A DNA stretch of 64,000 nucleotides from Acidobacteriota bacterium (GTDB lineage: Bacteria; Acidobacteriota; G020349885), in contig CP070701.1 of NCBI GenBank assembly GCA_020349885.1, positions 1,972,339-2,036,338 of the forward strand, read 5' to 3'. A program made the translations under genes and the position numbers. The notes beneath the pieces were generated by a model, which searched no databases, had not been told where the DNA came from, and saw only the letters and a list, made by a program, of their open reading frames with translations. This document shows, piece after piece, positions 13,767-51,321 of the stretch (the first letter of the stretch is position 1; the number at the start of each line of letters is the position of its first letter).

Positions 13767-14108
13767 ATGGCGGGGCTCCTCGTGATGCTCAACAATTTCC
13801 TCCACGACCTGGCCGTCGCCGTGTTCTTCTGCTCGTGGATGGGGCTCCTCGTTCTCGCGCGTGAGGCGCAGGAGCAGAGCGCGGTCCGGCGGCTCGACCG
13901 AGCGTTCCGAAAAACCGCCGGGTGGAGTTTTTTCTTTATTCTCGCGCTCGGCGTCGTCCGGACCGTCTACTACCGGGAGTACGAATGGTACAGCGCCGTC
14001 GAGCACGGCCAGGTGGCGGCGCTCGTCGTAAAGCACGCCCTCTTCGTCGTCATCATAGTCGCGGGCTGGACGTACCTCTGGAAAACCCGAAAAAACCGCG
14101 CGGGCTAA
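13767..14108 (+). CDS. Three-helix membrane protein with intramembrane histidines
   Basis: The protein has 113 residues. Three hydrophobic helices are seen at about 5-28, 48-66 and 80-104. Histidines sit in helix 1 (LNNFLHDLAVA) and at the start of helix 3 (AVEHGQVAALVVKHAL), the sort of placement used for b-haem in CopD-like or DUF2269-like proteins; haem binding is an inference. GAGGAG lies six bases before the ATG. It follows the lipoprotein gene by 14 bp, and its stop overlaps the stop of the convergent 8-haem cytochrome gene by 3 bp. Confidence 0.65.
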   Translation: MAGLLVMLNNFLHDLAVAVFFCSWMGLLVLAREAQEQSAVRRLDRAFRKTAGWSFFFILALGVVRTVYYREYEWYSAVEHGQVAALVVKHALFVVIIVAGWTYLWKTRKNRAG

Positions 14109-15055
14109 CGGTTCTCCCTCCTGTGCTCCGGCGCGCCGCTCCGGGTTTTCACGGGTAGCGGCTGGACGGGAAGGAGGGGCGCGGCCGAATGCGGAACGCC
14201 GTGGCATACGAGCGTGCATCCGCTCGCCGGCGAGTATTCCACGATGCCGTCCATGGGGAAAACCATCCCCCGGTCGAAGCGGATGAGGTCGGGCGCCGCG
14301 CTCGCGTGCGGGTCGTGGCACGTGTGGCACGAAACGCCACGCTTGACCACGTGGAGCACGTGGCGTCCCGGCCCGGCGTCGTTCAACACGGAACGCCGCT
14401 CATGGCACCTGTAACACAGGGCGTAGGCCTCGGCCGATTCGGCGGCGCCGTCCTGGGTCGCGTAAGCGTCGCGGAGAATTCCCGCGTAGCGCGAGCCGTG
14501 GAGCCCGCGAGGGCCGCTCGCGTCGTCGTTTCCGTGGCAGTCCGTGCACCGGACGGTCGAGCCCGCGGCTACGCTTATGTGCGGCGACACCGGCAAGCCT
14601 CCCTCCGCAGCGGATAGTTCCTGATGGCAGCCGAGGCAAAGCTCGCTCGCCCCGAAGGGCCGGGAACGCTCCTCTTCACGTGAGACGAAACGCGCGTCCT
14701 CGGGCTTTGGATGAACGGCGTGACAGGTGAGGCAATCCTTGGCGGGCCACGTCTTGGTCATAGGATGCGCGAAAGGCTTCAGGAATTCCGCCTGGATGTT
14801 TGGAAGTTCTTGTGCCGCGGCACCCAGCCGCTTTGCTTCCTTCGCCTCTCGTTGACTCTCCACGCCGCCGTGGCACTGGAGGCAGAATTTTTCCCCGCTC
14901 TCGTTAAGAAGGACTCCGCTGCTCCTGTGGTTCTGGTGGCAGGACGCGCACCCTTTAGGAAACAGGTGCCGATCCTTGTGCGCACTCTGTTGTGCCACGA
15001 GCACGCCGAACAAGCATGCCGCAAATAATATCGCCGACCACCTCAAGCTTCTCAT
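14105..15055 (-). CDS. Octahaem cytochrome c of the barrel-cytochrome operon
   Basis: The 316-residue protein begins with an export signal (MRSLRWSAILFAACLFGVLVAQ). It contains seven CxxCH motifs (CASCH, CLQCH, CLTCH, CLGCH, CTDCH, CYRCH, CHTCH) and one CX3CH variant, CTLVCH, near the C-terminus; extra His residues between them can serve as distal ligands. The ATG at 15055 overlaps the barrel gene's stop (ATGA), so it is made together with that barrel. The pairing of a porin with a periplasmic multihaem cytochrome resembles porin-cytochrome conduits such as Mtr or Pcc; the specific family is not identified. The frame upstream of 15055 lies inside the barrel gene and is not used. Confidence 0.9.
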   Translation of the reverse strand: MRSLRWSAILFAACLFGVLVAQQSAHKDRHLFPKGCASCHQNHRSSGVLLNESGEKFCLQCHGGVESQREAKEAKRLGAAAQELPNIQAEFLKPFAHPMTKTWPAKDCLTCHAVHPKPEDARFVSREEERSRPFGASELCLGCHQELSAAEGGLPVSPHISVAAGSTVRCTDCHGNDDASGPRGLHGSRYAGILRDAYATQDGAAESAEAYALCYRCHERRSVLNDAGPGRHVLHVVKRGVSCHTCHDPHASAAPDLIRFDRGMVFPMDGIVEYSPASGCTLVCHGVPHSAAPLLPVQPLPVKTRSGAPEHRRENR

Positions 15056-17425: not shown

Positions 17426-18175
17426 TTACTTGTTGTGGCAAACTCCGCACAGAGCGCTATCGGCCATAGTGTTCCGCAGGAACGGCAGCGTGTCGCCGGC
17501 TCCATACAGATGCGGGTTGTGGCACGAAGCGCATTCCACTTCGTACGTCGCACCGAAAAGGTATCCCGTCGGCACCGTCGTGCGGTCTTTGAGACCGTCG
17601 TCGACTGCCGGGAGAACCATTTCCATGCCGACCGGGTGGTCGTACGTCAGGTCTTTGCCCAGCAAGGCGGTGCCTTTGATGAGGACCTCGTAGTCGCCTG
17701 ATGGCCCGACGTTACCGGCCCCCGACGTAAAGAGAATGTCTTTTCCACCCAGCGGAAAGACGGCCGGGAACACCACGAGCTCATCGAGTCCGAGGCTCCC
17801 GTCGTGGCACGACATGCACGCCAAGGTCTGTCCGCCCAAGGTCGCGTCGAGGTTGCTCGCGTTGATGGTGTTCTGGGGATTGCCGTAGGGAACGAACGGA
17901 CCTGCGGGATCTTTGCGGTTCCACAGAGCGATCGTCTTACCTGCCGCACCCAAGAGCGTGCCGTCAGCGTGCGGGAAGTGACAGAAGTCGCACCTTCGCG
18001 TGGTGTCCGACTTGGTGTCGTGCGTCGCCGACGTAGCGAAGTTATGCATATTGGCGGCGTTCGTGAGGATGTCGCCCGTTGCGGCGAATGCCGGCGCCGG
18101 GGTCAACATCAAACCCGCCAACAGTGCTCCCGCCGCCACACCAAGTGCTGCGGTGAGCAATAGTTTCATCTTCAT
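17426..18175 (-). CDS. Periplasmic tetrahaem cytochrome c
   Basis: The 249-residue protein has a clear signal peptide ending APAFA. Four CxxCH motifs are seen: CDFCH, CMSCH, CASCH and CGVCH at the very C-terminus. HNFATSATHDT and CASCHNPHLYG are typical of doubled-CxxCH or cytochrome c3-like small periplasmic carriers that shuttle electrons between inner- and outer-membrane complexes. AAGGAGAA lies a good distance before the ATG. It is monocistronic between its own consensus promoter and a strong terminator, suggesting high, separate expression. Confidence 0.9.
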   Translation of the reverse strand: MKMKLLLTAALGVAAGALLAGLMLTPAPAFAATGDILTNAANMHNFATSATHDTKSDTTRRCDFCHFPHADGTLLGAAGKTIALWNRKDPAGPFVPYGNPQNTINASNLDATLGGQTLACMSCHDGSLGLDELVVFPAVFPLGGKDILFTSGAGNVGPSGDYEVLIKGTALLGKDLTYDHPVGMEMVLPAVDDGLKDRTTVPTGYLFGATYEVECASCHNPHLYGAGDTLPFLRNTMADSALCGVCHNK

Positions 18176-21785: not shown

Positions 21786-22901
21786 CTACGGCGCCTTCGC
21801 CTCGGACGCGCCCGGCGTTTCTTCAGGTGTGCCCAGGAACTCGAAAACGCTTATGCGGCAATTGACGGAGTCGGCGACGTAGATGCGGTCATTGTCGTCA
21901 ATGAAAATGCCCGAAGGGAGATTAAGATGCCCGTCTTCCCAGCCGTGCTCGCCAAACACGAGAAGAATCTCGCCTTCACGGTTGAAGATCTGGACGTTGC
22001 CGAACGCCGAGTCCGCGACGTAGATGTGTCCCTCGCTGTCCACCGCCACACCCTTGGGCTTCGCAAGGTTTCCCGGACTCGTGCCGAGGGAGCCGACCTT
22101 GAAGAGAAACTCCCCGTCGGCGTCGAATCCCTGGACGCGGAAATTAAAGAAATCGGTGACGTAGACGAGCCCCTCCTCGTCCACCCAGATGTGTCCCGGT
22201 TTGTAGAACTGGCCGTCCTCTGACCCCAAGGAGCCGAAAGAGAAAAGCAGCTTGCCTTCCTCCTTGGAGAAGACGTGCACGGCGTTCGCCTTGCTGTCGC
22301 TCACGTAAACACGGCCGAGGCTCTCGTTCACCCCCACATCCACGGGATGTACGAACGTTTCGGCGTCCCCATACGTCCTGATAGGCGATTGCCACGGGTC
22401 GAAAGCTACCACGACTTTCGACTTCGCATCGACGGCGTAGAAATTGCCCGCATCGTCCACATCAAGGCCCGTCACGTACCGGAGCAAGTACGGAGCTTTT
22501 CCCGTGAACTGGGAATAGTTCTTATTTACAATGTCGAACACGCCGATGTAGGCATAGGCGGACGCGTAGATGCGCTGCCGTTTGGAATCCACGGCCACGT
22601 CGAACGGGCGATAGATGTACCGGTCATCTTGCTTTTCGCCGACAAGCTTTTTCCATAAACGGCCCTTCCTTGATTCCGGAAAATTGAAATCACCCCAATA
22701 GGAGCCGAAGAAGCGAATCACGGGCTCGGCGGGGGGAGGCGGCCACACAATCTTCGTAGACTCGCTCCAATCCACGGCCTTTGCTTTCTTTTTTTTCCCC
22801 TTCTTCTCCTTTTCCGCGGCCACTGTAAACACAACCAGCAGCGCGCACACCAAAACGAGCCCGAGCTTAACCGCGTTTCTCATGGTTTCTTTGCAGCGCA
22901 T
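21786..22901 (-). CDS. NHL-repeat beta-propeller protein, exported
   Basis: The protein has 371 residues, or 365 if the ATG at 22883 is used; both give an N-terminal hydrophobic signal (AVKLGLVLVCALLVVFTVA) followed by a lysine-rich stretch. About six NHL blades follow (PFDVAVDSKRQRIYAS, PVDVGVNESLGRVYVSD, PKGVAVDSEGHIYVADSAFGNVQIF, PSGIFIDDNDRIYVADSVNCRISVF). NHL propellers are protein or ligand scaffolds without catalytic residues visible here. It begins one base after the 38-haem cytochrome stop, so the two are cotranslated, and it is the last gene of the surface electron-transfer operon. Confidence 0.88.
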   Translation of the reverse strand: MRCKETMRNAVKLGLVLVCALLVVFTVAAEKEKKGKKKKAKAVDWSESTKIVWPPPPAEPVIRFFGSYWGDFNFPESRKGRLWKKLVGEKQDDRYIYRPFDVAVDSKRQRIYASAYAYIGVFDIVNKNYSQFTGKAPYLLRYVTGLDVDDAGNFYAVDAKSKVVVAFDPWQSPIRTYGDAETFVHPVDVGVNESLGRVYVSDSKANAVHVFSKEEGKLLFSFGSLGSEDGQFYKPGHIWVDEEGLVYVTDFFNFRVQGFDADGEFLFKVGSLGTSPGNLAKPKGVAVDSEGHIYVADSAFGNVQIFNREGEILLVFGEHGWEDGHLNLPSGIFIDDNDRIYVADSVNCRISVFEFLGTPEETPGASEAKAP

Positions 22902-22902
22902 C

Positions 22903-25900
22903 TTACTTCATGTGACATGTCCCGCAGAGCGCCATCTCGTTGTCCACTTTATTCCGAAAGAGCCGTCGTTCCATACCGCTGTGGGGATTGTGGCAGGAAA
23001 CGCAGGATAGGTCAATGGGTTTCCATTCCTTAGCGCCCACGTCGAGCTTGAACGATCCCTTCACGGGATGTCCGTAACGAGGGTGGTCAAAATCACCGCG
23101 AAGGGGGACTTTCCTGAACGCCGCCCGCTCCGCCTCGTCAATTCCATGGTCCGACAGAAAGCCCTCCTGCGGCGCGGTCTCGGTGTGGCAGGCGCGGCAG
23201 ATGGTGTTGACTTCGGCGCGCAGGAGCTTCTCCGCGCTCGTCGCGTGCGGCTCGTGGCAGAGGGCGCAGCCCCAGCGCTCCACGGCGGCGTGCACGGTGG
23301 GGCCGTTCGAGAGGACGTCGTCGTGGCACGAGAGGCAGAGGTCGGGCATCGGTTCGAGGAGAAGCTGCTCCGAGGACGAGGTGTGCGGCTCGTGGCAGCC
23401 CGCGCAGCCAGCCGCCTCAACGGCCCCGTGAACCATCGGCATGTTCGCAACTTGCTCCTCCTTATCGCCGTGGCAGGCGAAGCACATGTCGTTCCCCTCC
23501 ATCTGGTACGTCACGCGCCCCTCCCGCGGCTCGTCGTGGCAGCCCTCGCACATGCGCTCGGCGAAGGGCGGGTGCGCGAGGGGGCGCACCAGCTTCGACT
23601 CGGAGGAGCCGTGCGGGTCGTGGCAGCGCGTGCAGCGGGCGTCCCCGACGGGGTGTCCCGCGTGCGCTTCCTTCAAGTCGCCCGGGTCGTGGCACATCGT
23701 ACACAGGGAAGGCAGCGAATCGGCCAGGAGATTCTCGTTGTCCGTCGCGTGGGGCGAGGCGTGGCAGCTGTCGCAGCCTCCCATATCGAGCACGCCGTGC
23801 GGGAATTTTTGTTTCGTTAATTTCTTGATATCCTCGTGGCAGCGGAAACAGAGAGCCTCGCCGCTTGCGGGCAGCAGCTTCGGGTGCGGCGCGAGGTGCG
23901 GGTCGTGGCAGGCGGTGCAGCCTTCCTCCGGGATGGCGGAATGAAGGAGCGCCGCGGGCTTGCCCTCCGTTACCTCGGCGTGGCACGCGAGGCAGAGCGG
24001 GTTGCCCTCCTCCATAAGCGTCAATTCTCCGCCCTCGCCCTGCTCGTGGCACGAGTCGCACATGCGCCCCTCGAACGGGGCATGATTGTTGGAAGCCTTG
24101 AATAGGAATTCCGCGTCGCTCCCGTGCGGCGCGTGGCAGGCGGTGCACGCCGCGCCGCTTATGTCGAAGCCGCCGTGCCTGGCGCGAAGGTCGTCGTCTT
24201 TGACGTCGTGGCACTCCCCGCACATCCGCGGGAGCGGCCGGCGCAGGAGGTGCGCCTCGCGCCCGGCGTGCGGCGTGTGACAGAAGGCGCAGTCCTCCGC
24301 GGCGGCGTGCGGAAATTTTTTCCCGGTTTGCGCCTCCACGTCGTCGTGGCACGCGACGCACATGGCCGCGCCGCTTTCAACGAACGCCGTGCGCCCGCGC
24401 CCGTCGCGCCCCGCATGGCAGGCCTCGCACATCCGCTCCCCGAACGGAGAGTGGACGGCCTCCCCCGCCAGAAGCTTCTCGTTCGCGCTCCCGTGCGGGG
24501 CGTGGCATCCGGTGCACACGGCCGCCGAAAGACCGGCGTTGGCATGGCGCTCCGCGAACTCCGCGTCCTTGATATCGTGGCACGCCCCGCAAAGCTCTCC
24601 CTGCTCGCCCCGGAGGAGGCGGCCGCTCCCGCTCAAGTGCGGGTCGTGGCAGGCGGTGCAGCCCTCGCCGAGGGCGGCATGGACTACGGGAAGCTTCGTT
24701 TCCGGCTCGATCTCCTCGTGGCACCGGAAGCAGAGGCGGTCGCCCTCGAACAGGAGGCTGACCTTGCCCCTCTTGCCCGAGCCGTAGTGGCAGCTCTTGC
24801 ACTTGCCCTCCCCGAAAGGGGCGTGGAGGCGCGAGCCGGAGAGAAGTCCCTGCTCGCGGCTTCCATGGGGGTTGTGGCACAGGGAGCACTTCCGGGGAAC
24901 CAGGCCGCCGTGCTTGTCTTGAAACGCCTTATCGCCCGAGTCGTGGCAGTCCGTGCAGAGGCCCGGCATGGCCTGCTTGAAGAGTTTTTCCTCGCGGCTC
25001 GCGTGGGGGTTGTGGCAGAGCGTGCAGTCCTCCGAGGCGGGCATGTGCTCCACGCCGGCGCGCAGGGCGCCTTCTATGTCGTCGTGGCACGCCGTGCAGA
25101 GCGCGGGCATGGGAGCGCGGTCCTCGGCGTGGCAGCTCTCGCACATCCTTTCCGCGAACGGCGGGTGCGCCGAGCCCGCAAGGAGCATGCCCGGCGCGTC
25201 GCTTCCGTGCGGGTCGTGGCAGGCGGTGCAGACCTCCCGCGAGATGTCCATGCCGGCGTGCCTGGTCTTGAGTGCCGCGTCCACGTCGTGACATGCAACG
25301 CAGAGCGAGGGGACGGAATCCGTCAGGAGCTTTCCATGGGTGCTCGCGTGCGGGTCGTGGCACGTGGAGCAGCCCCCCATCTCGACGGCGGCGTGGGGAT
25401 GGGAGGAGCGGAGCGCCCCGGCGACGCCCTCGTGGCACGAAAGGCACATCGCCTGGGCGTCCTCCTGGTCGAGGAGATTCCCGTAGGGCGAGTTGTGCGG
25501 GCGGTGGCAGGAGAGGCACTCCCGCTCCTGAAGGAGCGCCTTGTGCGGCGTCTCCTCCTCGATCCGTTTGGCCACGTCCTCGTGGCAGTCGAGGCAGAGC
25601 TCCCTCCCCCGCTCCTTGAGCGAGACGATGGCCCTGTTGTCCATCGTGGGCTGCACCTCGTGGCAGGCCAGGCAGTCCGAGAGCTCGAGCGCCCCATGCA
25701 GCCCCTTGGGGAGCTTGACAGTCTTGTGGCAGCGCAGGCACGTGGCCTCCTCCGTGTTCTTGAGCCGGGGATGGCGCTTCGCGGCCTGGGAATGGAGGAG
25801 GACACCGCCCGCGCCCGAGACGAGGAGCAAGAGGCCCGAAACGAGGGCCGGGAAGCAAAGAGGCGAGCGGCGCGCCGTCGTTGTCGCTCTACGTGTTATT

Positions 25901-25905
25901 TTCAC
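22903..25905 (-). CDS. 38-haem c-type cytochrome
   Basis: A protein of 1000 residues with a signal or anchor segment (residues ~15-38) and 38 CxxCH motifs, one per ~26 residues. From about residue 235 they recur as a five-haem unit: PFAERMCxxCH, LCxxCH, (E)DC/GCxxCHxPH, LCxxCHD, CxxCHxPHGS. About five units are seen, one with two extra haems. The final motif is CGTCHMK at the C-terminus. Haem-rich repetitive proteins of this sort are cell-surface or outer-membrane electron carriers. The start is GTG with no Shine-Dalgarno; a promoter lies directly at it. The next gene (NHL protein) follows after one base. Confidence 0.95.
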   Translation of the reverse strand: MKITRRATTTARRSPLCFPALVSGLLLLVSGAGGVLLHSQAAKRHPRLKNTEEATCLRCHKTVKLPKGLHGALELSDCLACHEVQPTMDNRAIVSLKERGRELCLDCHEDVAKRIEEETPHKALLQERECLSCHRPHNSPYGNLLDQEDAQAMCLSCHEGVAGALRSSHPHAAVEMGGCSTCHDPHASTHGKLLTDSVPSLCVACHDVDAALKTRHAGMDISREVCTACHDPHGSDAPGMLLAGSAHPPFAERMCESCHAEDRAPMPALCTACHDDIEGALRAGVEHMPASEDCTLCHNPHASREEKLFKQAMPGLCTDCHDSGDKAFQDKHGGLVPRKCSLCHNPHGSREQGLLSGSRLHAPFGEGKCKSCHYGSGKRGKVSLLFEGDRLCFRCHEEIEPETKLPVVHAALGEGCTACHDPHLSGSGRLLRGEQGELCGACHDIKDAEFAERHANAGLSAAVCTGCHAPHGSANEKLLAGEAVHSPFGERMCEACHAGRDGRGRTAFVESGAAMCVACHDDVEAQTGKKFPHAAAEDCAFCHTPHAGREAHLLRRPLPRMCGECHDVKDDDLRARHGGFDISGAACTACHAPHGSDAEFLFKASNNHAPFEGRMCDSCHEQGEGGELTLMEEGNPLCLACHAEVTEGKPAALLHSAIPEEGCTACHDPHLAPHPKLLPASGEALCFRCHEDIKKLTKQKFPHGVLDMGGCDSCHASPHATDNENLLADSLPSLCTMCHDPGDLKEAHAGHPVGDARCTRCHDPHGSSESKLVRPLAHPPFAERMCEGCHDEPREGRVTYQMEGNDMCFACHGDKEEQVANMPMVHGAVEAAGCAGCHEPHTSSSEQLLLEPMPDLCLSCHDDVLSNGPTVHAAVERWGCALCHEPHATSAEKLLRAEVNTICRACHTETAPQEGFLSDHGIDEAERAAFRKVPLRGDFDHPRYGHPVKGSFKLDVGAKEWKPIDLSCVSCHNPHSGMERRLFRNKVDNEMALCGTCHMK

Positions 25906-25910
25906 ACGAG

Positions 25911-25919
25911 ATTATAGCA
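25911..25919 (-). promoter_or_regulatory. Extended -10 promoter at the 38-haem cytochrome start
   Basis: Minus strand TGCTATAAT, a perfect TGn plus consensus -10. The expected start point (about 25904) coincides with the GTG start codon at 25905, so an internal leaderless transcript is predicted in addition to operon readthrough. Confidence 0.5.
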
Positions 25920-26017
25920 GAAAACAGCCGAAAAACCGCACTTTTTCCGCCAACCTCGCTCCGCCGAAGGCTACGCGAAGGCGAGTGGACAGACTCCTCC
26001 TATATAATAACGCCGCG

Positions 26018-29000
26018 CTATTGGCCCGGATAGTCGTAGTAGTAGGTTGGTGCCGCGAACCTTCCAGTCTCGTGAGCGGTGCACGTGGTTAAACTGTCGG
26101 CGCTGCCTGGTGTGTAGCAGCCTATCTCTTCGGGTGAGTCGTCGCCCAGGTCGTGTCCTGTCCACGAGGAGCCGTTGGTAAAGCGCACGCCCATGGCGTT
26201 GCTGCCCTTCGAGCCTACGCCGCGGGTGCTTCCATGGATCTCGCCGGCGCCCAGGCCGCCGTGGCAGTTCAGGCAGCCGATGGGATATAACGTTCCGCTA
26301 CTACTACTACCAGTTGGACCAGCCGTGCCCATGCAAGACGAGGACGTTTCCCCTCCCTGGTGCTCCAAACGGCTAAGCGCATTATGGGTCCCGCCACCCT
26401 TGTTCGCCCCCCAGCCGTACACGTCGCCGCGGTGGCAGTTGATGCAGAAGTTTTCCATCGTGTAAAGCTCGTCGTCCGCGTCGCTCGTACTGGGAACGCC
26501 GCCTGTGTAATCGTTCATGTTCGGGTACCTCACCAAGGTACCGCCTTTACCGTTAGTATCATCCAAGGTAACCGTTACATAGATGTCCACACCTTTTAGG
26601 AGCCAGCGGTAGGCCGAGCCGTGCGGGCCGCGCGGCCCCGCCGGGTCGGAATACTCGTGGCAGTCGCTGCAGGTCACAAGGCTGTCCTGACCCCAGCCGT
26701 CCACGAACGTGTTGGAAAGGCCCGTTCCCGTCCCGTCGCCGGGTTCCCACTTGTCGCCAGACTTGGCCGTCCCCAAATCCCAATTCGCATTCGCGGTATC
26801 GGGCGGTTGATTCAGGCCCACGGCGAACAGCGGGTGGAAGGCATAGTTGTCCACGTCGAAGTCCTTGCCCACGTCGGTCTGTGCCTTCGGTGACCCCTCG
26901 GGATAGCTCGAGATCGTGTTCGGCGGCGTGGCGTCCCAGCCCCATTCGGAGTGGCACAGCAGGCAAATCTGGTACTGCTCCGTGGGCGAGTCCGTGTAGC
27001 CCGTGTACGTGACGCTCCGGAACGTGGAGTCGGAGGCGACTGTGGCGGGGTCCAAGGCGACGCCGCGGGCACCGAGATTGCATAATCCAATCCCGCCCGC
27101 CCCGGGCGTGTGGTTCCCAGCCTGGGCCACGTGCGGGTTGTGGCAGTCCCCGCACTCGACGTGGCGGCTTCCGTCCGGGTTCCATCCCTTCGACTCGCCC
27201 TCTCCATAGGGCAGGTGCACGCCGGAGGTCAGGTCGACGGGGTGCGTGTACGTCGAGCCGAAGGCGGCGCGGATGCCCTGCGAGCCGGTGCTCATCGCCG
27301 TAACGTCGTAGTAGTCCAAGCCGTCGCCCAAGTCGTCGTGGCAGTTGTAGCACATGCCCTCCTCGTAGGGATCCGTGGCTGCTCCGTCGCCGTAGTTGGA
27401 TACGAGGCGCCTCAGGTCGGAGTCGTGAAGTCCGAATTTGTAGGTCGATCCCCCCTGTGCGTCCATGCTGCTCTTATTTGGAGACTTGGTGTCGATGTGG
27501 CAGCGGGAGCAGTTCGCGTTGAACGTCGAGCTGTCCGTGAACGTCGAGGTGGGCGTCGCGTAGTCGTGCGCCGACGCGTCGTAGCTAGCAATGTTTATGG
27601 CGGGCGTCTTCGTCGTGCCGTCGCTCTTCTGCTTCGCGGTGTTCTTCGTCTGCTCGTACTGGTGGCACGAGGTGCAGATGCCGCCCTCCAGGGCCGGGAG
27701 CGAGTTGTCAAAGTCGGTGTTTATATAGCCCTTTGTCTTATCCCACACCTCGCCTTTAATGGGCTGCACCGTCACGTTCGTGCGCAGGTTGTAGGAACGG
27801 CCCGGGCTTTCGGGGTTTTTGGCCGGGTCCGGGCTAAAGATTTCGTGGTCCACGTGGCACATGAGGCACCGGCGATCCGTGTCCTCTTCGTCTCCCGGGG
27901 CGAACTGCGCCTGTGCGGGATACGGCGTGGACATGCTGAAGTTCTGCAGGTAGTGGTGGTACTTCGCGGTGTTGTCGCCCAGCGCACCCGTGAGGTCGCT
28001 GTGGCAGCTGTCGCAGTCCGCGCCGCCGTCGCCGCCCGAGGCCTTGAATCCCTCTCCGTGCGGGTGGCACGAGGTGCAGTCCTGGGCGTTCTTGTGGCCA
28101 GGGTTCGGGTGGCCCGCGTCGTTTCGATGGTACTTCGTCTTGGTGTGGCACACCTCGCAAAGATTCGTCTGCACCGTGTCGGTGTCGTCCGCGAGGACGC
28201 CGGACGTGTTGTCGCCCTTTGTGCCGGTGAGCGCCTTGAAGAGGACGTCGCGATAACCGCTGTTGGGCGTCTTAATCGTCTCGCGGACAAGGTAAATGTT
28301 CCTGGTGCTGTGCGGCGTGTGGCACGTGCGGCAGTTCACGGCCCAGGCGCCGTAGCCCGTGTCGATAAACTCGCTCGAGTGCGTCGAGAGCGCGTGGCAG
28401 TCCATGCAGAGCTGCGCGTCGTTCGCACGCCTGAGGAGCATGCCGTCGCCCATGGGCAGCCCGCCGGAGTTCCTTACGGTCACGGTCGCGACGCGAACGG
28501 GTGAAGGGTTACCCGAAGTGTCGTAGCCGCGGTAGAAGATGGGCTGCGCCACCTCGACGTCCGCTCCCACGGTTGCGGTCGTGTCCCAGACGTATTCGTA
28601 GATTCCCTTGGTGGCGTCGTTTGGGTAGTTCGCGTTGAGCATCGCGTTAGACCACGCCGCACCGTCGAACGAGACTTGCACGATTGGATCGACCGCGGCC
28701 AGGTTGTCCGCGTCGAAGGCCGAAATCTTGATCGTGACGGTGCCCCCGACGGCGCTCCCGTCGACCGGCGAAAGAATCAGCACCGTGGGGGATGACACGA
28801 GGGCCGCTAGGTCCTGCGGAAACGCCGTATCGGCGTTCTTGCCGGCGTCCACCGAGTCGTTCCACTCGTTGTCGCTCGATTTCCCGAAGACGGCGTAGTA
28901 GTAAGTAGTGCCGTTCACGAGCGGCGAATCAACGGTGCTCACTTTTGCGCCGGGCGTCGGTGACGAATCCAGATAGGCCTGCGTGCCGTCCGTGTTGTCC

Positions 29001-31873
29001 ACGGGGAAGCCCGTCGTCTTGCGCCGCACCACGACCTCGGCGAGCGCGGGGTCGGGAGGATTGGTCCAGGTGAGCGTGCTCTGAGTGCTCTCGCCGTCCG
29101 AGGCGTCGAAATCCGTTACCTGGTCGGGGACCATTCCGCCGGACGTGATAATCTCCGAGTCGGTGGAATTGAACGGGACGAAAGTGTTGCTCACAGCGCC
29201 GGTCGTGGTGAAGTACGTCTCATCCGCGATGCGGATGCCGACCTTGTGTCCGACCACGGCGGCGGGGTCGATATCGTACACGATGAAGAAGTCCTGCGAC
29301 GCCGTCGTGATGACCTGGGCCGGCGCGAGCGTTATGGCCACCGTCCCGCCCGAGAACGTCCCCTGTCCGATGAGCACGTCGGTCCCGTCGAACGAACCGG
29401 GTGTGCCTCCCGTGTCATCGTAAATCTGAACGCCGTTCGCGGCCACGTCGGTGTCGAACGCCACGCCGGTGGTGTAGAGGTCCACCCGAATGGCCGTCCA
29501 CGACACGCTGCAGTAATTCGTCACCAGCGCCATCCGCTCCATCGCCACGCCGGTCTGCCCCTGCGTGACGCTCGGCGGAGCGAGGTTCGCCGGCGTCACT
29601 ATCATCAGGGACGCAAGGATCAGCGAATCCAGGGAGTTGAAGGGCATGTTGGCGCTGCTCACGGTCTGGTCCATCGTGAAGTACGTCTCGTCCACGATCT
29701 GGATACCCACGTTGTTGTCCACGGTAGACGCGCAAGCAATGTCGAAAACGACGTAGAAGTAGGAAGTCGTCGCCGTGACGTTTTGCGCCGCCCCGAAAGT
29801 GATCGTCACCGTCCCGCCCGAGAACGTGCCCGAGCCGATTTCGGTATCCCCATCCCCGATGTCGAACGAGCCCACCGTGGTGGCTCCCGCGTCGTCGTAA
29901 ACCTTCACCGCAGCGATGTCGCCGTCGGCGGCCGTCGTCGTCGTGTAAAGGTCCACCTTAACCTTCGTCCACGAGGCTGTTCCGAAGTCCGTTGCCACGG
30001 CGAGCCGCTCCATCGCCACGCCCGGCTGGCCCTGCGTGACCGCTCCCGGCGCAAGATTGGTCGGCGTCACCGTGACGGTCGGGGCGGAGCACGCACACGT
30101 GTTCACCGGGGCCGACTTGGTCGAGCAGCCCTTGCTATCCGTCACCGTCACGTCATACGGACCCGTTCCGCACGGCTTAGTGACAATCGTCGACGTCTCG
30201 GAGTCCGGACTCCACGAGTACGTATACGGAGGCGTCCCGCCCGACGCGTTCGCATCGAGCGTCGAGTCCGGATCCCCGCACGTCTCCACAATCGTCGTAG
30301 ACGGGTTCGGGTTCACCACCACCGTGATGGTGTTCGTGGTTTCCACGCAGCCCGGCTCCCCCGTGTCCGTCACCTCGCAGTCATAGCCCCCGCTCGTCGT
30401 CGCCGTGATCGCCGTCGTCGTCTCGCCGTTCGGCGCCCACAGGTACGTGAACGGCCCCGTCCCTCCCGTCGCTGATGCCGTCAGCACAACGCTCCCGCCC
30501 TCGCAGAACGTCGTCGGCCCTCCCGCACTCGCCGTAGCTCCCGTCATCCCGCACACCACGCACGCGCACGTGCTCACCGGGTCCGACGTGGTCGAGCAGC
30601 CCTTGCTATCCGTCACCGTCACGTCATACGGACCCGTTTCGCACGGCTTCGTGATAACCGTCGACGTCTCGGAGTCCGGACTCCACGAGTACGTGTACGG
30701 AGGCGTCCCGCCCGACGCGTTCGCGTCGAGCGTCGAGTCCGGATTCCCGCAGGTCTCTATAATCGTCGTCGCCGGCTTCGCGTTCACCGTCACCGTCTCG
30801 CCCGCGGACGTGTCCACGCAACCGTTGTCATCCGTTATCTCCACCGTGTACGTCGCGGCCGTCGTCACCGTGATCGCCGTCGTCGTCTCGCCGCCCGGCG
30901 CCCACAGGTACGTATACGGAGCCGTCCCCGCTCCCGTATCGCTCGCCGTCAACGTCACGCTCCCGCCCTCGCAGAACGTCGTCGGCCCGCTCGGCGTTAT
31001 CGTCGCCGTCGGGTTCGGGTTCACCGTCACCGTGACGGTGTTCGTGGTTTCCACGCAGCCCGGTTCCCCAGTGTCCGTCACCTCGCAGTCATAGCCCCCA
31101 CTCGTCGTCGCCGTAATCGCCGTCGTCGTCTCGCCGTTCGGCGCCCACAGGTACGTGAACGGGCCGGTCCCGCCCACGGGAGCGGCGACGATGTCTACGC
31201 TCCCGCCGTCGCAGAACGTCGTCGGCCCAAGCGCTGTCGCCGTAGCTCCCGTCATCGAGCAAACAAGCACCGTGTAATCGACGCGCAGGATGGGACGGTT
31301 CGCCGATGTGGCGTTCTCCCTCGTGGCGTAAAGCCAGAAGCCCACGTTTGCGTTTTCCGCGGCGAGCCTGACCAGCAGTCCGTAGTTCGTGGCGGGGGTG
31401 TCGAGCCAACCCTGGACCACCGAGGCGGTAACCGTCCATATCTTCCAGCCCGTGGACGTGCCCGGCGCCAGCGAGCCTCTGACCGTACCGGAATTGGCGG
31501 GCTGACCTTGCCAGGTAACGGTCGTCTCGACCCACGCCTCTGTGATGTCGTAGAGTTCCTGGACCGCCGCCGCGTCCGTGCCCGCCGCTTCCGCGTAGAG
31601 CTCGAGCTGCGCCGAATTGATGGTCGCGCCCGCCGGAATGGACGAAAGATCAAATTGCACGAGACTCCGCGTCTGCGTGTTGTTCCCCGCCCTCCCCACG
31701 GACATCGTGGGATCCGTGCCGTAGTTCACCTTTGTGTTTGCACGGTCAACGTAGGAGTCCTGCTGCGAGGGCTGGATGACGGCCACGTCGGCCAGGGCGG
31801 GCGCGAAGGCGAGCGCCGCCGCCAGGAACGCAAACAACAGTGAGAATCTCTTACACGTCACGTATCGCATCAT
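26018..31873 (-). CDS. Giant surface cytochrome: DNRLRE and PKD-like domains fused to a 14-haem region
   Basis: The protein has 1951 residues. A signal (FSLLFAFLAAALAFAPALA) is followed by a DNRLRE-type domain (DSYVDRANTKVNYGTDPTM to ILRVDY, ~25-190), then PKD-like repeats sharing TTFC(E/D)GGSV and TYLWAPNGETTTAIT up to ~560, two related ~150-residue beta domains (each starting L-A-P-x-x-V-T-Q-G-Q-x-G-V-A-M-E-R), an FN3-like region, and finally 14 CxxCH motifs between about 1130 and 1900. DNRLRE and PKD modules are typical of extracellular adhesins and polysaccharide-binding proteins. ATGATG start overlaps the upstream stop. Start may also be 31870. Confidence 0.93.
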   Translation of the reverse strand: MMRYVTCKRFSLLFAFLAAALAFAPALADVAVIQPSQQDSYVDRANTKVNYGTDPTMSVGRAGNNTQTRSLVQFDLSSIPAGATINSAQLELYAEAAGTDAAAVQELYDITEAWVETTVTWQGQPANSGTVRGSLAPGTSTGWKIWTVTASVVQGWLDTPATNYGLLVRLAAENANVGFWLYATRENATSANRPILRVDYTVLVCSMTGATATALGPTTFCDGGSVDIVAAPVGGTGPFTYLWAPNGETTTAITATTSGGYDCEVTDTGEPGCVETTNTVTVTVNPNPTATITPSGPTTFCEGGSVTLTASDTGAGTAPYTYLWAPGGETTTAITVTTAATYTVEITDDNGCVDTSAGETVTVNAKPATTIIETCGNPDSTLDANASGGTPPYTYSWSPDSETSTVITKPCETGPYDVTVTDSKGCSTTSDPVSTCACVVCGMTGATASAGGPTTFCEGGSVVLTASATGGTGPFTYLWAPNGETTTAITATTSGGYDCEVTDTGEPGCVETTNTITVVVNPNPSTTIVETCGDPDSTLDANASGGTPPYTYSWSPDSETSTIVTKPCGTGPYDVTVTDSKGCSTKSAPVNTCACSAPTVTVTPTNLAPGAVTQGQPGVAMERLAVATDFGTASWTKVKVDLYTTTTAADGDIAAVKVYDDAGATTVGSFDIGDGDTEIGSGTFSGGTVTITFGAAQNVTATTSYFYVVFDIACASTVDNNVGIQIVDETYFTMDQTVSSANMPFNSLDSLILASLMIVTPANLAPPSVTQGQTGVAMERMALVTNYCSVSWTAIRVDLYTTGVAFDTDVAANGVQIYDDTGGTPGSFDGTDVLIGQGTFSGGTVAITLAPAQVITTASQDFFIVYDIDPAAVVGHKVGIRIADETYFTTTGAVSNTFVPFNSTDSEIITSGGMVPDQVTDFDASDGESTQSTLTWTNPPDPALAEVVVRRKTTGFPVDNTDGTQAYLDSSPTPGAKVSTVDSPLVNGTTYYYAVFGKSSDNEWNDSVDAGKNADTAFPQDLAALVSSPTVLILSPVDGSAVGGTVTIKISAFDADNLAAVDPIVQVSFDGAAWSNAMLNANYPNDATKGIYEYVWDTTATVGADVEVAQPIFYRGYDTSGNPSPVRVATVTVRNSGGLPMGDGMLLRRANDAQLCMDCHALSTHSSEFIDTGYGAWAVNCRTCHTPHSTRNIYLVRETIKTPNSGYRDVLFKALTGTKGDNTSGVLADDTDTVQTNLCEVCHTKTKYHRNDAGHPNPGHKNAQDCTSCHPHGEGFKASGGDGGADCDSCHSDLTGALGDNTAKYHHYLQNFSMSTPYPAQAQFAPGDEEDTDRRCLMCHVDHEIFSPDPAKNPESPGRSYNLRTNVTVQPIKGEVWDKTKGYINTDFDNSLPALEGGICTSCHQYEQTKNTAKQKSDGTTKTPAINIASYDASAHDYATPTSTFTDSSTFNANCSRCHIDTKSPNKSSMDAQGGSTYKFGLHDSDLRRLVSNYGDGAATDPYEEGMCYNCHDDLGDGLDYYDVTAMSTGSQGIRAAFGSTYTHPVDLTSGVHLPYGEGESKGWNPDGSRHVECGDCHNPHVAQAGNHTPGAGGIGLCNLGARGVALDPATVASDSTFRSVTYTGYTDSPTEQYQICLLCHSEWGWDATPPNTISSYPEGSPKAQTDVGKDFDVDNYAFHPLFAVGLNQPPDTANANWDLGTAKSGDKWEPGDGTGTGLSNTFVDGWGQDSLVTCSDCHEYSDPAGPRGPHGSAYRWLLKGVDIYVTVTLDDTNGKGGTLVRYPNMNDYTGGVPSTSDADDELYTMENFCINCHRGDVYGWGANKGGGTHNALSRLEHQGGETSSSCMGTAGPTGSSSSGTLYPIGCLNCHGGLGAGEIHGSTRGVGSKGSNAMGVRFTNGSSWTGHDLGDDSPEEIGCYTPGSADSLTTCTAHETGRFAAPTYYYDYPGQ
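30091..30299. repeat. Repeat A, copy 1 (within the giant cytochrome gene)
   Basis: This 209-bp segment is nearly identical to 30562-30770. It encodes the T-C-G-x-P-D-S-T-L-D to C-A-C PKD-like unit. Confidence 0.85.
30331..30453. repeat. Repeat B, copy 1 (within the giant cytochrome gene)
   Basis: This 123-bp segment is nearly identical to 31039-31161 and encodes the Y-L-W-A-P-N-G-E-T-T-T to G-C-V-E-T-T-N stretch. Confidence 0.85.
30562..30770. repeat. Repeat A, copy 2 (within the giant cytochrome gene)
   Basis: Second copy of the 209-bp unit, 471 bp from copy 1, with scattered mostly synonymous differences. Confidence 0.85.
31039..31161. repeat. Repeat B, copy 2 (within the giant cytochrome gene)
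   Basis: Second copy of the 123-bp unit, 708 bp from copy 1. Confidence 0.85.
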
Positions 31874-32931
31874 TTGTCCACCGTGGCGGAGTTCGAGTCC
31901 GTATAGTGCACGTCGTGGCAGGTGAGGCACCGCACGATGCCGCCGTCGAGTGCGAGGTCGTTCGTCGCGTTAGTGTCGTCGGAGGCGCCCTGGGCTTTTC
32001 CATCCACATCAAGGGGCGTACCACGATCGTAGCCGGCCAAGTTGGCATTCAGCCCCTCGCCGACGGGGTGGCTGAAGTTGCTTCCCGTGTAGGGACCGTC
32101 CACATCGGCGTACCCCATGCCGCGCTCCGCGTGGCAGTCGAGGCAGAACACGTTAACACCGTCGTCAAGAGGCGCGCGCAGGAACGGGTAACCGATGTAG
32201 AATTCGTAGCGGTCTTCGGCGGTAAAGTCTCCGCCAGACGTGTCGAATGTCACCTGTACATTCGCGCCGTCGTTCAGTTCCTGATAAGTCGGTGTCTCGC
32301 TTGTCAGGCGCGCGGGCGCACTGGCGGGGTATTCATCCCAGGCGGCGCCGGTCCAGCCCCACCACGTGCGCTCGTTGTCGTTCGAGAATACGTATGTCGC
32401 CTCCGTGCCCGCCTTGCCACCAGCGATGATTCTGATGAGATAGATCTTCGGGTTCGCGGCGGGATCCACCTGGAAGACGACCCCGCCCGCGGGTCCCGCA
32501 ATCTCATCCAAGCTTAGGCGCTGAGGACCCCAGTTGTTCGTCTCGTGCTGGTCGTGGCAGGTCGAGCACGTAATCAGCGTACCGTCCATGCGCAGCTGCA
32601 TCTCGGTGTTGCCCGGGGGCTTCGCGCCGTAAGCGGTATTCGTCGCCTCCGCGCCCCACCGGTGCGTCGTGCCCACCACACCGGGAACGGTGACGTTGGA
32701 CGTTTCGAGCATGGGGAAATCGGAAAGCGCGTTGTGGCACTGCTGGCAGACGAGGGCGTTCGTCGTGGCGTTTGTGAGAGGGCCTCCCAACGTGGCGTGC
32801 GCAACATGGCACGAGGCGCACTCCACCTCGAAGGACAAATCGTGCGGAGCGTCCGTTGCGAAAAGCAAGCCCATCAGGCCCAGCAGCCCGACGAATCCCG
32901 CGAATGCGCCCAACCGTTTCATCGCCGTCAT
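31870..32931 (-). CDS. Pentahaem c-type cytochrome of the surface operon
   Basis: A 353-residue protein with a signal (LGAFAGFVGLLGLMGLLFA) and five CxxCH motifs: CASCH, CQQCH, CSTCH, CLDCH and CLTCH. Between the third and fourth haems is a ~130-residue haem-free insert (FQVDPAANPKIYLIRIIAGG, YEFYIGYPFLRAP) that looks beta-rich. The last motif is followed by DVHYTDSNSATVDK. The ATG at 32931 overlaps the stop of the NHL/FN3 gene as ATGA, and its own stop overlaps the ATGATG start of the giant cytochrome, so all three are translationally linked. The frame upstream of 32931 is not coding. Confidence 0.9.
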   Translation of the reverse strand: MTAMKRLGAFAGFVGLLGLMGLLFATDAPHDLSFEVECASCHVAHATLGGPLTNATTNALVCQQCHNALSDFPMLETSNVTVPGVVGTTHRWGAEATNTAYGAKPPGNTEMQLRMDGTLITCSTCHDQHETNNWGPQRLSLDEIAGPAGGVVFQVDPAANPKIYLIRIIAGGKAGTEATYVFSNDNERTWWGWTGAAWDEYPASAPARLTSETPTYQELNDGANVQVTFDTSGGDFTAEDRYEFYIGYPFLRAPLDDGVNVFCLDCHAERGMGYADVDGPYTGSNFSHPVGEGLNANLAGYDRGTPLDVDGKAQGASDDTNATNDLALDGGIVRCLTCHDVHYTDSNSATVDK

Positions 32932-35900
32932 TGCCCCGTCACCCGAATGAATAGGTTGTCCGGCGGCGACAACGCACCGCCCGTAATGATTTCCGAATTC
33001 CCCGAAACCAAGACGGACCAGCCGCCCGGGAACTGGGGCGTCGTATCCCACTCCAAGAGGTAGCTCGTGACCGCCTTGGGCGGCGAGCCGGCGTTCTTCG
33101 AAGCGGTGATCTCCGTCCACTCCACGAGCAGGTCGTCGCCCACCTTCGTCACGTATACGTCGTAGACGCCGGCCATCGGGCTCTGCCAGGTGGGCGTGGC
33201 CGAAACCTGGACGCCCGCGCTTTCTATGTCGCCCGCGATGACGGTGCGGACCTCGTACAGATAGGTCTCGCCGTTCGTGAGCCCGGTGTCCACGTACGTC
33301 GTCTTGTCGATGGGCACGTCGAAAAGCCTCGCGAATTGCCCGAGGACGGAATCCCAGCGATAGACGCGGTAGCCGAGCAGGGCGTCCTCGCTAACGTAAT
33401 CCCAGCTCAAGAACACGACGGAGTTGTCGGCCAGGGCCTGCACCTGCGAGGGCGCATGGGGCACGACGTAGACCCCCCGCACGCCCCAAACCTCGTTGCC
33501 GAGAGGATTGAGGTCGTTGTTGAACAGAACGCTGTTGACGCCCTCTTGCAGCGCGCTCAGGGGGATGCTCACCGTCCGGGTCGCCGACCACGTCGCCGAG
33601 GCATGCTCGGCCACGAAGCCCAGCGAAACGTCGTTGATGAAGAGCTCCACCTCGTCCTGGGAAACCTCGGTTATCTCGTACGCGAGAACCACGTCGTCGG
33701 AACGCTTCTGGAAGGTGTATCCCATGGAATCGCTGTGCGGATAGGGGTCGGAAGGAATGTTTCCGTATTCTCCCATGGCGGGAAGCGCCTCGGCCGTATC
33801 GCTCGGAACCAGGGGGAATCCCGCGGAAAACGGCCCCATGGTTCCGATGTCGTTAATGGCCGCCACCAACACGGTGTGCAGCACGCCGTCTTCAAGCCCG
33901 CCGACGCGCAAGAAGGGCTCCACAACCACTCGGACCGTCACCTGGCCCGTCCCCGAATTCACGACGTTCACCAAGTAGCTCTCCACGGTCTCCGCCGGCG
34001 GATTGGGCGCCCACCACAGGAGAAGCTGGCCGCCCAGACAGGTGTCCGCTCCCGTGACCCCCGCGGGGGCGGAGGGTATCCGCTGCGGGACGGCGGAAAC
34101 CTCGGCGCTGTAAGGACTCCGGTTGGCCGCCGTGTCCTCCGCCTGCACGGCGAAGTAGTGCGTGATGCCCTCGGGGAGACCCGAGAACGTGTAAGAGGTT
34201 GCAAGGCCCGCGGCGACTTCCGCGCCGTAGCTGCCGGACGCCGTCCCGTAAGCCACGAAATATCCCGCCAAGTCCGGATCGGCGTTGGCGGCCCAGGAAA
34301 CCGTCACGTTGCCCGCGTTGTCCGCCAGCGCGCTCACGCCCAGCGGCGTCGCGGGCGGCAGGTCGTTCACCGACGTTCCCTGCGCCTCGTTCGAATCGGC
34401 CGCGTGCGCCATGGAGAACGCGCGAATCTTGTAGGTATAAAGGAGGCCGTCCGTGGTGGAGTCCGCGTACTGGGTCGTGCCGGCGGCGACCGTCGCGCGC
34501 TCCGAGAAGAATCCGTCGCCGGGGTTCTGGCGGAGCACTTCGTAGCCCAGAACCGTGCCGCGGCCGGCGCCGTCGTCCGGCGAGAGGGCCCACTGGACGT
34601 TAATTTGCCCGCCGTTGTCGCCGGGGACGTCCTGGGCCGTGACGCCGCTTGCGGGCCCGGGCGCCACAGCCCGGCCGCCGATTTGAAACACCTCCACGCT
34701 GCCCTTGTTGGCGCAGGCGACGAAGAGGCGATGGAAGGCATCGCCCTCGCAGTCAAGCGGCAGTTGGAGCTTTCCGTCTTCCGTTCCGAATTCGGAGATC
34801 GAGGCCTGAAGCGTGCCGCTTGAATCGAGCACCTGGACGCGGCCCTGAAACACATCGGTCACGAAGAGGTTGCCGTCGCCGTCCATCCACATGCCGCCGA
34901 AGGCGTCCACGTCGATGTCGCTTCCTCTCCAATTGGCCACCCAGGTGCCGCCGCTCTGGAAGACGGCGACGCGGTCGTTCCCGAAATCCGACACGTAGAG
35001 CTGCGAGGCGTCCGGGGAGAGGGCGACCGCCACCGGAAACGCCAGCTCTCCGTCCCCCCGCCCGCTCTGTCCTATGCTCCGGAGGTACGCGCCGCCGGCG
35101 TCGTAGACGCGCACGACATCGCGCGCCTTATCCACCACGTAAAAGTCACCACCGACCCCGACGGCGACGTCCGCAGGGGTGGCGAATTCTCCATCACCCG
35201 CACCGAGGTCGAAAAGCCACGTCCCGCCCGCGTCGTAAACCGATACTTTTCCCGAGCCGGCATCGCCCACCGCCCATCCACCGCCCGGCAGCGCGGCGAC
35301 GCCGAGCGGTTTCTCCACACCGCTCAGATAGCCTTCAAGGTCTCCCGTCGCGCTGAACCACTTCACGCTTCGTGTTGGAGGGTCCGAGACGGCGAATTCA
35401 CCGCTCGCGGCCACCGCGATGCGCGTGGGCGAGACGGCGACCGACCCGAACGATGCCACCGCTTCCCAGTAAACGGAATCCACCGTGACCGTGGCCGAAT
35501 CGGAAGCCCAGCCGGCGTTCGTCACGGTGCAGGTGATGACGGCCTGCTGGTTCCCAAGTGCGGGGGCCGTATAGGTCGCCGTGGGATCGGAGGGCGAAGA
35601 GCTCGTCACACTGCCCGCCGTGGTGCTCCAGTCATACGTCAACGGGCTTCCCTTGGGGTCGGTGGCAACGCAATCAATGAGAGCGGTCCCGCCGCTGTCC
35701 ACGACGCCCGGCGTCGCGGTGAGCGACGTGATGACGGGCGGCTCCGCGGTCGTGACGGAAACGACGAGGCTTTGCGAGGCATACTCGCGGCCGCCGCACA
35801 TCATTCCGCCGCTGTCCGCAATTTGGACGGTCAGCGTGTACTGGCCTTCCGCGAGGGGCGCCGTCCAATCCGCCGAGGCCGTGTAGGGACTCTTGCTCAC

Positions 35901-36170
35901 CCCGTTTTGCACGTTGGAATAGCTCCCGCCGTCAGCGGTCCAGCTCGTGAGGTCGGCGCGGATGTACAGCCCGCAGCCGGAGGTGCACTCGGAGGGGCAG
36001 TCCGGGTCGTGGGCTTGAAGGATAAGGGAAATCATCTCCCCCGGCGCCACCACGGTGGCCGTTGCGTCGAACGAATCAATCACGGGGACCTGGGTGGCCC
36101 ACGCGCCGGCAGCGGCTAGGCAGAAAAGAGCAACGCCGCTAATTCTTGCCTTCAATCCAACGCTCCGCAT
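32928..36170 (-). CDS. Exported Ig-like/NHL propeller/fibronectin type III protein, first gene of the surface operon
   Basis: The protein has 1080 residues from the ATG at 36170, chosen because GGGAGG lies ten bases upstream and a signal peptide (ISGVALFCLAAAGAWA) follows directly. Residues ~30-230 are two Ig/PKD-like beta domains, ~235-530 NHL-like blades (ADVAVGVGGDFYVVDKARDVVRVYD, PVAVALSPDASQLYVSDFGNDRVAVFQ), and ~550-1080 fibronectin type III modules (YEVLRQ, YKIRAFS, SYLLEWDTTP). It contains no haem motif. It probably acts outside the outer membrane, organising or anchoring the cytochromes encoded downstream (inference from domains and context). Confidence 0.9.
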   Translation of the reverse strand: MRSVGLKARISGVALFCLAAAGAWATQVPVIDSFDATATVVAPGEMISLILQAHDPDCPSECTSGCGLYIRADLTSWTADGGSYSNVQNGVSKSPYTASADWTAPLAEGQYTLTVQIADSGGMMCGGREYASQSLVVSVTTAEPPVITSLTATPGVVDSGGTALIDCVATDPKGSPLTYDWSTTAGSVTSSSPSDPTATYTAPALGNQQAVITCTVTNAGWASDSATVTVDSVYWEAVASFGSVAVSPTRIAVAASGEFAVSDPPTRSVKWFSATGDLEGYLSGVEKPLGVAALPGGGWAVGDAGSGKVSVYDAGGTWLFDLGAGDGEFATPADVAVGVGGDFYVVDKARDVVRVYDAGGAYLRSIGQSGRGDGELAFPVAVALSPDASQLYVSDFGNDRVAVFQSGGTWVANWRGSDIDVDAFGGMWMDGDGNLFVTDVFQGRVQVLDSSGTLQASISEFGTEDGKLQLPLDCEGDAFHRLFVACANKGSVEVFQIGGRAVAPGPASGVTAQDVPGDNGGQINVQWALSPDDGAGRGTVLGYEVLRQNPGDGFFSERATVAAGTTQYADSTTDGLLYTYKIRAFSMAHAADSNEAQGTSVNDLPPATPLGVSALADNAGNVTVSWAANADPDLAGYFVAYGTASGSYGAEVAAGLATSYTFSGLPEGITHYFAVQAEDTAANRSPYSAEVSAVPQRIPSAPAGVTGADTCLGGQLLLWWAPNPPAETVESYLVNVVNSGTGQVTVRVVVEPFLRVGGLEDGVLHTVLVAAINDIGTMGPFSAGFPLVPSDTAEALPAMGEYGNIPSDPYPHSDSMGYTFQKRSDDVVLAYEITEVSQDEVELFINDVSLGFVAEHASATWSATRTVSIPLSALQEGVNSVLFNNDLNPLGNEVWGVRGVYVVPHAPSQVQALADNSVVFLSWDYVSEDALLGYRVYRWDSVLGQFARLFDVPIDKTTYVDTGLTNGETYLYEVRTVIAGDIESAGVQVSATPTWQSPMAGVYDVYVTKVGDDLLVEWTEITASKNAGSPPKAVTSYLLEWDTTPQFPGGWSVLVSGNSEIITGGALSPPDNLFIRVTGQ

Positions 36171-47901: not shown

Positions 47902-47909
47902 TCTTTCTC

Positions 47910-48344
47910 CTACGAGAAGTGCCCCCAAACCGTGAAGACAGCCCACACAACCAATCCCGCCGCGGCAAGGACGAGAGCCATGGGCCTCCTGTAGGGATTG
48001 AGGTCTGGGTTGCGGTCCAGGAAGGGAAACAAGAAGAAAATGGCGAACACGATCCCCTGCCCGAAAACACCGATGACCTTGGGAGCCCATGGACCGAGAA
48101 ATGCCGTCACTTCCGCCGCTTTCAAGAACTGGTAGGACGCAAGAAAATACCACTCCGGTTTGATGTGCTCAGGCGTGGTGTAGGGATCGGCCTTCTCGCC
48201 GATTTCACCGGGCGCGAACGTCGCAAGCGTCAGCAGCGCCGCAAAAACCACAACGGCCACACAGGTTTCCTGCAGCACGTGGTGCGGCCAGAAGGGATGG
48301 TAGCGGGGGCGTCGGCCCTTCGCGTTCTTGGCTTGCTCGTTCAT
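47910..48344 (-). CDS. Cytochrome b subunit IV-like protein (PetD type)
   Basis: A 144-residue protein with three membrane helices. The quinol-oxidation PEWY motif is present in HIKPEWYFLASYQFLK, and FFLFPFLDRNPDLNP matches the following helix of cytochrome b C-terminal domains. It completes the split cytochrome b encoded with the preceding gene, with which it overlaps by ATGA. Confidence 0.93.
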   Translation of the reverse strand: MNEQAKNAKGRRPRYHPFWPHHVLQETCVAVVVFAALLTLATFAPGEIGEKADPYTTPEHIKPEWYFLASYQFLKAAEVTAFLGPWAPKVIGVFGQGIVFAIFFLFPFLDRNPDLNPYRRPMALVLAAAGLVVWAVFTVWGHFS

Positions 48345-49186: not shown

Positions 49187-49668
49187 GCCTCAACGAAGAC
49201 GTGGTCGCCCGAAATGCGCGCCTTGTAAACCCGCAAAGGCGACGGCGCAGGGCCGCCTGTCACGGCGCCGTGCAGATCAAACTTGGCGACGTGGCACGGA
49301 CATACCAGTTGGTGCGCCTCCTTTTTCCATGTGACGAGACAGCCCAAATGGGTGCACGCCGCGCTCAGGGCGCGCACCTCCGATTCGCTCACGCGCACCA
49401 CAATCACGGTGTCGCCCATGAAGCCCACCTTCTTGGAAGCTCCCACCGGAAGCTCCCCGAGCGGCAGCGTAAGACGCCCTGAGCCCGTCATCTGTATCGT
49501 CTCGGAGGGCCAAAAATACGAAAAGAGAGGGTACATGGTCCCCGCGATTGCGAGGAAGAAGCCGCTGTTAATGATGTAGTCGATAAACGTGCGGCGCCCG
49601 TAAACCTTATCAAGGTTTACACCCTTATCTTTTCGGGTAGGGGCCGAGAGGCCCGTCTTGTCTTGCAT
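49183..49668 (-). CDS. Rieske 2Fe-2S protein
   Basis: A 161-residue protein. One membrane helix (IINSGFFLAIAGTMYPLFSYFW) follows RRTFIDY; the cluster ligands are in CTHLGCLV and CPCHVAKFDLHG, with a disulfide between the second cysteine of each pair, and the GPAPSPLRVYKARI tail is conserved. First gene of the four-gene quinol-oxidising operon. Its Shine-Dalgarno is weak. Confidence 0.95.
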   Translation of the reverse strand: MQDKTGLSAPTRKDKGVNLDKVYGRRTFIDYIINSGFFLAIAGTMYPLFSYFWPSETIQMTGSGRLTLPLGELPVGASKKVGFMGDTVIVVRVSESEVRALSAACTHLGCLVTWKKEAHQLVCPCHVAKFDLHGAVTGGPAPSPLRVYKARISGDHVFVEA

Positions 49669-51238: not shown

Positions 51239-51321
51239 TGTGCTTCTCTCTGTAAAACAATATAGCAGTTTTGCCTTTTATAATCTACAGAAAGCGCGCT
51301 GCCCCGGGAGGCGGCGGCGCA

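Follow-up and report, generated by a model that had tools for sequence, protein, structure and literature searches.

The five minus-strand genes E, D, C, B and A, located in a 64,000-nucleotide stretch of an Acidobacteriota genome (contig CP070701.1; hereafter the window, to which the positions below refer), probably constitute the larger half of an OmcE-type electron-export cluster with an extracellular propeller-cytochrome accessory complex. We assign this reading a probability of roughly 0.77, based on gene and domain content, homology to OmcE with a full ligand set, a barrel prediction, synteny, and fusions among E, D and C. The functional unit reaches past the E–A coordinates to a second block on the same strand (14105–18175; Table 1). 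Judged by its sequences, the core of the unit is an OmcE/Uet-type cluster, which is a known kind, and E-D-C is the less familiar part. Synteny with OmcE nanowire clusters supports the proposal of an extracellular electron-transfer apparatus made in an earlier note on this DNA; the operon as delimited there did not include the nanowire subunit or the barrel, 3–8 kb away.

Table 1. Positions in the window of the cluster genes, the promoter and the neighboring quinol-type gene set.
Feature	Position	Strand	Evidence
Sigma-70 consensus promoter TTGACA-N17-TATAAT	36301-36273	-	exact; upstream of E
E, exported NHL beta-propeller with PKD/Ig-like and FN3 domains	32928..36170	-	Pfam NHL 5.1e-9, fn3 2.4e-18
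D, 5-haem cytochrome, 353 aa	31870..32931	-	5 CXXCH
C, 14-haem cytochrome	26018..31873	-	14 CXXCH; DNRLRE/CBM96 and SprB-type repeats N-terminal to haem region
B, 38-haem cytochrome with repeating haem units	22903..25905	-	38 CXXCH
A, exported NHL propeller	21786..22901	-	NHL 1.1e-25; one base downstream of B
OmcE homologue, tetrahaem nanowire-type cytochrome	17426..18175	-	phmmer 9yuq 1.7e-18, 7tfs 1.4e-14, near full length
Outer-membrane beta-barrel, 597 aa	15052..16845	-	AF2: 28 predicted strands, pLDDT 71.6, pTM 0.61
7-haem cytochrome	14105..15055	-	7 CXXCH; orthologue in G028
Multihaem/quinol set	46618..56660	-	Pfam: 9-haem, cytochrome b, Rieske, NapC-type 11-haem, 19-haem and 11-haem with cytochrome-b561-like C-termini, 3-haem

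In-frame CXXCH counts (E 0, D 5, C 14, B 38, A 0) and Pfam matches agree with the five minus-strand genes, the haem numbers and the NHL/FN3 and NHL proteins reported earlier. The gene junctions are likewise as described, with an ATGA overlap between E and D (D start at 32931), an ATGATG overlap between D and C (C start at 31873) and a single base between B and A. The promoter that had been called perfect is indeed exact, occurring once in the window and in none of 100 dinucleotide shuffles. E comprises 1080 aa counted from the ATG at 36170, although translation may begin at this codon or at a TTG at 36209; for B, the assigned start, a GTG, is uncertain. Since 112 nt separate C from B, the B-A pair may have its own promoter, giving two transcripts. 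In a crude hydropathy test, all five proteins displayed a hydrophobic, signal-like N-terminus, and none carried a lipobox. Riboswitch control of the cluster was dropped after an Rfam search returned no match. Folding of a hairpin in the E 5′ UTR was no better than in shuffled sequences (z = 0.01).

B contains its 38 in-frame CXXCH motifs within 1000 residues and reaches a paired-CXXCH score of 522 bits, which together exclude chance. Outside the haem motifs, the protein matches itself best when shifted by 171 and 123 residues, corresponding to 7- and 5-haem units, and its relatives carry 9–42 haems. One of these relatives, with 42 haems (L162:13095), lies in an Acidobacteriota OmcE locus. The earlier placement of the haem proteins outside the cell may not hold for B, for which we infer a role as a wire within the periplasm to be likelier than an external position. 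NHL proteins of the A type adjoin B and/or OmcE in Acidobacteriota, Zixibacteria and Geobacter. All 31 matches to the paired-CXXCH family PF09699 in the 2.4 Mb genome fall between positions 14282 and 55360 of the window.

The second block encodes the OmcE homologue, whose structural matches are 7tfs, the subunit of the tetrahaem OmcE nanowire, and 9yuq, a 16-chain entry titled just "putative multiheme cytochrome c". In an alignment of 42 relatives with 7tfs, four CXXCH motifs and four further histidines were invariant in 43 of 43 sequences, exactly what four bis-histidine haems need; the window protein retains 8/8 of the expected haem-ligand histidines and has a signal-like N-terminus by the crude hydropathy test. 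Phylogenetic reconstruction grouped it with 7tfs, apart from the 7-haem-associated OmcE2 proteins and the OmcE domains of 11-haem proteins (43-row split, support 96/92). This suggests a placement beside OmcE of G. sulfurreducens with moderate support, because the window protein sits on a long branch. Its AF2 monomer model (pLDDT 49) was unsuited to a fold search.

Foldseek matched the predicted barrel to generic outer-membrane barrels (TM 0.3–0.4), and profile searches yielded no MtrB/PioB family match and only a weak one to Porin_4 (25.4 bits against a cut-off of 27). Another barrel, Legionella_OMP-like, is encoded upstream of the cluster at 38845–41000, beside a CsgG-type lipoprotein gene. 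In relatives, the 7-haem protein often occurs as a fusion with a second OmcE domain, giving 11 haems (L157–L159, L165, L168–L174). In L157:8627, L158:8526, L173:7463 and others, the OmcE-like domain comes first, followed by the 7-haem domain. Such fusions, and the position of the barrel next to multihaem cytochromes, would also suit a non-filamentous porin-cytochrome conduit, in which the OmcE homologue would act at the cell surface as a monomer or in short chains, the barrel holding the 7-haem protein in the manner of MtrB-MtrA. We consider this arrangement unlikely, since every haem ligand of OmcE is conserved without exception in the 43 sequences, the solved filament subunit included, and the barrel does not match the MtrB_PioB model.

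The two cytochrome blocks are separated by a fused MFS/spermidine-synthase-like gene on the opposite strand (18612–21761). GSU2502, located beside omcT/oscC in Geobacter, is also annotated as a spermidine synthase (PMC10599522). We rejected this gene as a cluster component, as the sampled clusters held no close match to it and one weak match of 27 bits (L163).

The host order has no other member in the compared genome set. In the Acidobacteriota genome G028, all eight window families are present in a single-strand operon with the order B (21 haems)-A-OmcE1-barrel-NHL2-OmcE2-7-haem-E-D-C-ResB-CcsA. Five Zixibacteria loci keep this order, and their barrel position is occupied by an ORF of 711–797 aa whose last residue is L or F; two of the five contigs stop before C. 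Most of 20 Acidobacteriota loci retain B-A-OmcE1-(barrel)-NHL2-OmcE2-7-haem, OmcE2 and the 7-haem protein being fused in about half of them (10–11 haems); the window is without NHL2 and OmcE2. Barrels at the same position in L155 and L156 scored 181 and 139 bits against a window/G028 profile in whose construction neither was used, and those of Bacteroidota, Calditrichota and Binatota scored 67–89 bits against a 17-sequence profile. OmcE relatives were found in 54 of 396 sampled Acidobacteriota genomes, and the gene set recurs in Acidobacteriota, Zixibacteria, Bacteroidota, Calditrichota, Binatota and Geobacter. Isolates that carry OmcE together with these modules include Aestuariivivens sediminicola, Geobacter argillaceus and Geomobilimonas luticola. 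Haem-rich and NHL sequences inflate profile scores, and our conclusions lean on gene order and full-length matches over E-values.

We further analyzed the E-D-C module. A search of genome contigs recovered 83 relatives of D, which shares 41–45% identity with its orthologues in G028 and G099. The D profile found no relative in the PDB, and the idea that D is related to OmcS was dropped on this result. Among 70 D-domain loci, themselves found by D and including partial D matches in Geobacter and Bacteroidota, an E-type propeller lies immediately upstream in 43 and is fused in 4 (together 47/70), while a C-type region is fused or adjoining in 32. E-D fusions occur in L045, L046 and L050, D-C fusions were also seen, and L056 combines E (12–569), D (1354–1680) and C (1683–2615) in one open frame. 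Such single-frame fusions are good evidence that the parts are physically associated, and they fit the earlier suggestion that propellers dock haem proteins, in three cases joining a propeller to the 5-haem domain and in L056 also to the 14-haem region.

The domains at the N-terminal side of C are of the substrate-binding type. The DNRLRE assignment made earlier holds (DNRLRE/CBM96 at 1e-31 and 3.7e-24, with 110.2 bits against a curated cut-off of 34 and 85.8 against 26), whereas the repeats described as PKD score as SprB (1e-12). Conservation with G028 and G099 begins only at about residue 1061 and covers the haem part and its immediate N-terminal flank; the N-terminal domains differ among species. 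This combination of variable binding-type domains and a conserved haem region suggests that E-D-C is a docking or terminal module joining the wire to its target, be it a mineral, a matrix or a partner cell.

Adhesin-type domains and variable C N-termini could also belong to an independent complex, a surface adhesin or part of the matrix, that happens to neighbor the electron-transfer cluster and whose NHL, DNRLRE and FN3 domains would bind polysaccharide. OmcE lies within 10 kb in just 15 of the 70 D loci, and E-D-like loci without a nearby OmcE are common in Geobacter, which this alternative would accommodate. We nevertheless find it improbable, because D and C are multihaem proteins, G028 and Zixibacteria have E-D-C and OmcE in one operon, and OmcE has E- and D/C-like neighbors in Geobacter L201, L205 and L206. 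More tentatively, at odds below even, E-D-C may accompany OmcE nanowires across phyla as an accessory complex, serving to anchor the wire, to cap it or to couple it to its target. On this reading, the 11-haem (UetJ-like) protein of relatives would be the base of the filament, its joined OmcE-like and 7-haem domains possibly initiating the wire at the barrel in the outer membrane. Neither the E-D-C module nor this domain reading of the 11-haem protein was found in the open-access literature searched; the main OmcE and extracellular-nanowire structure papers lie outside it, and either may have been described before.

The earlier note matched the design to no named system, but the window cluster resembles both the Geobacter omcE neighborhood (10-haem, 8-haem, NHL, OmcE) and a gammaproteobacterial Uet-like cluster. 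In G. sulfurreducens, gsu0615-gsu0617 lie upstream of omcE (PMC1829397, PMC13194489), and in this cluster (GSU0615-GSU0618) OmcE has an NHL propeller gene and multihaem genes of the B type as neighbors, as in the window. Four Geobacteraceae genomes show the order 8-haem-NHL-OmcE followed by an ORF of 741–797 aa, with a 10-haem gene ahead in three. This large ORF ends in aromatic residues and directly follows OmcE, as at the barrel position of the window cluster; homology between it and the window barrel was not detectable. Geobacter differs in keeping E-D/C-like genes at a locus separate from 10-haem-8-haem-NHL-OmcE, and in multihaem partners of 8–10 haems versus 38 in window B.

The Uet cluster was compared by its published gene set (PMC10734462) rather than by Tenderia sequences. 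The window cluster shares with it the tetrahaem OmcE type, an outer-membrane barrel and NHL proteins. An Ectothiorhodospiraceae locus (L207) encodes an 11-haem protein consisting of an OmcE domain and a C-like haem region, an NHL protein, four trihaem proteins, a 4-haem relative of OmcE and a barrel-like ORF of 595 aa, and this gammaproteobacterial locus thereby holds most of the listed Uet genes. Uet has the undecahaem UetJ, the PPIase UetB and trihaem genes; in the window, the 7-haem protein is encoded separately (fusions with 11 haems being found in relatives), and there is no PPIase in the cluster and no trihaem gene in the block. Rotamase (PPIase) genes matched only at 735 and 859 kb of the genome.

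An MtrB/PioB-family barrel, as in Mtr/PCC systems, is absent from the window cluster. The osc (OmcS companion) operon encodes a nanowire cytochrome with channel-like and large multihaem proteins (PMC13194489), and its OmcS binds six haems and shows no similarity in sequence to OmcE (PMC12977616). The osc operon differs from the window cluster, which is of the 4-haem OmcE type with no PPIase nearby, in this hexahaem OmcS and in its prolyl isomerase OscH. By description, both join a nanowire-type cytochrome to a propeller, a channel-like component and large multihaem proteins, the osc propeller being OscD. A SEEP-SRB operon encodes 16-haem and 26-haem cytochromes, a PPIase and a six-bladed propeller, and no known porin-complex homologue was found there (PMC5539420); by description it likewise unites large multihaem cytochromes and a propeller in a single operon, differing in its PPIase. 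The window cluster falls outside the Mtr/PCC, osc and strict Uet definitions.

For the favored OmcE-type export reading, we infer filament formation, protein locations, the route and direction of the electrons and their substrate. Electrons from the quinone pool would enter the periplasm, probably through the multihaem/cytochrome-b complexes at 46618–56660, a probable inner-membrane quinol-cytochrome gate. They would cross the periplasm on the 38-haem protein B, with propeller A as its partner, leave through the 28-strand barrel in the outer membrane, to which the 7-haem protein would be coupled, and continue into a filament that the OmcE homologue would build outside the cell. Propeller E, 5-haem D and 14-haem C would form a single physical complex outside the cell. 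Direction is not readable from sequence, and inward electron uptake, by oxidation of Fe(II), metal or a partner cell, would reverse this route instead of serving respiration to an external acceptor. Inward uptake was proposed for Uet in cathode-oxidizing bacteria (PMC10734462), with which the window has part of its gene set in common. We regard uptake as rather doubtful here, since the multihaem quinol-type complexes of the genome resemble export gates and no haem-copper oxidase (COX1) scored above cut-off in the genome, though a cytochrome bd oxidase is present. DsrA was likewise not found above cut-off in the genome, which does encode ResB for cytochrome c maturation. At L042:6078-14561, five tandem paralogues of ~540–550 aa with RRxFLK twin-arginine-like motifs lie near a c3-type 4-haem/FeS/NrfD set; the two tested belong to the flavin amine-oxidase family.

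Several features weigh against the export reading: the missing NHL2 and OmcE2, the split blocks, the lack of a PPIase, the generic barrel matches without an MtrB/PioB hit, the low-confidence AF2 model of the OmcE homologue and its long branch in the tree. If the export reading holds, it extends OmcE-type export to a deep lineage of Acidobacteriota. For the anchoring of cytochrome wires at the envelope and at their targets, a step that is still largely unexplained, the gene set and fusions recurring across phyla provide specific, testable wire partners.
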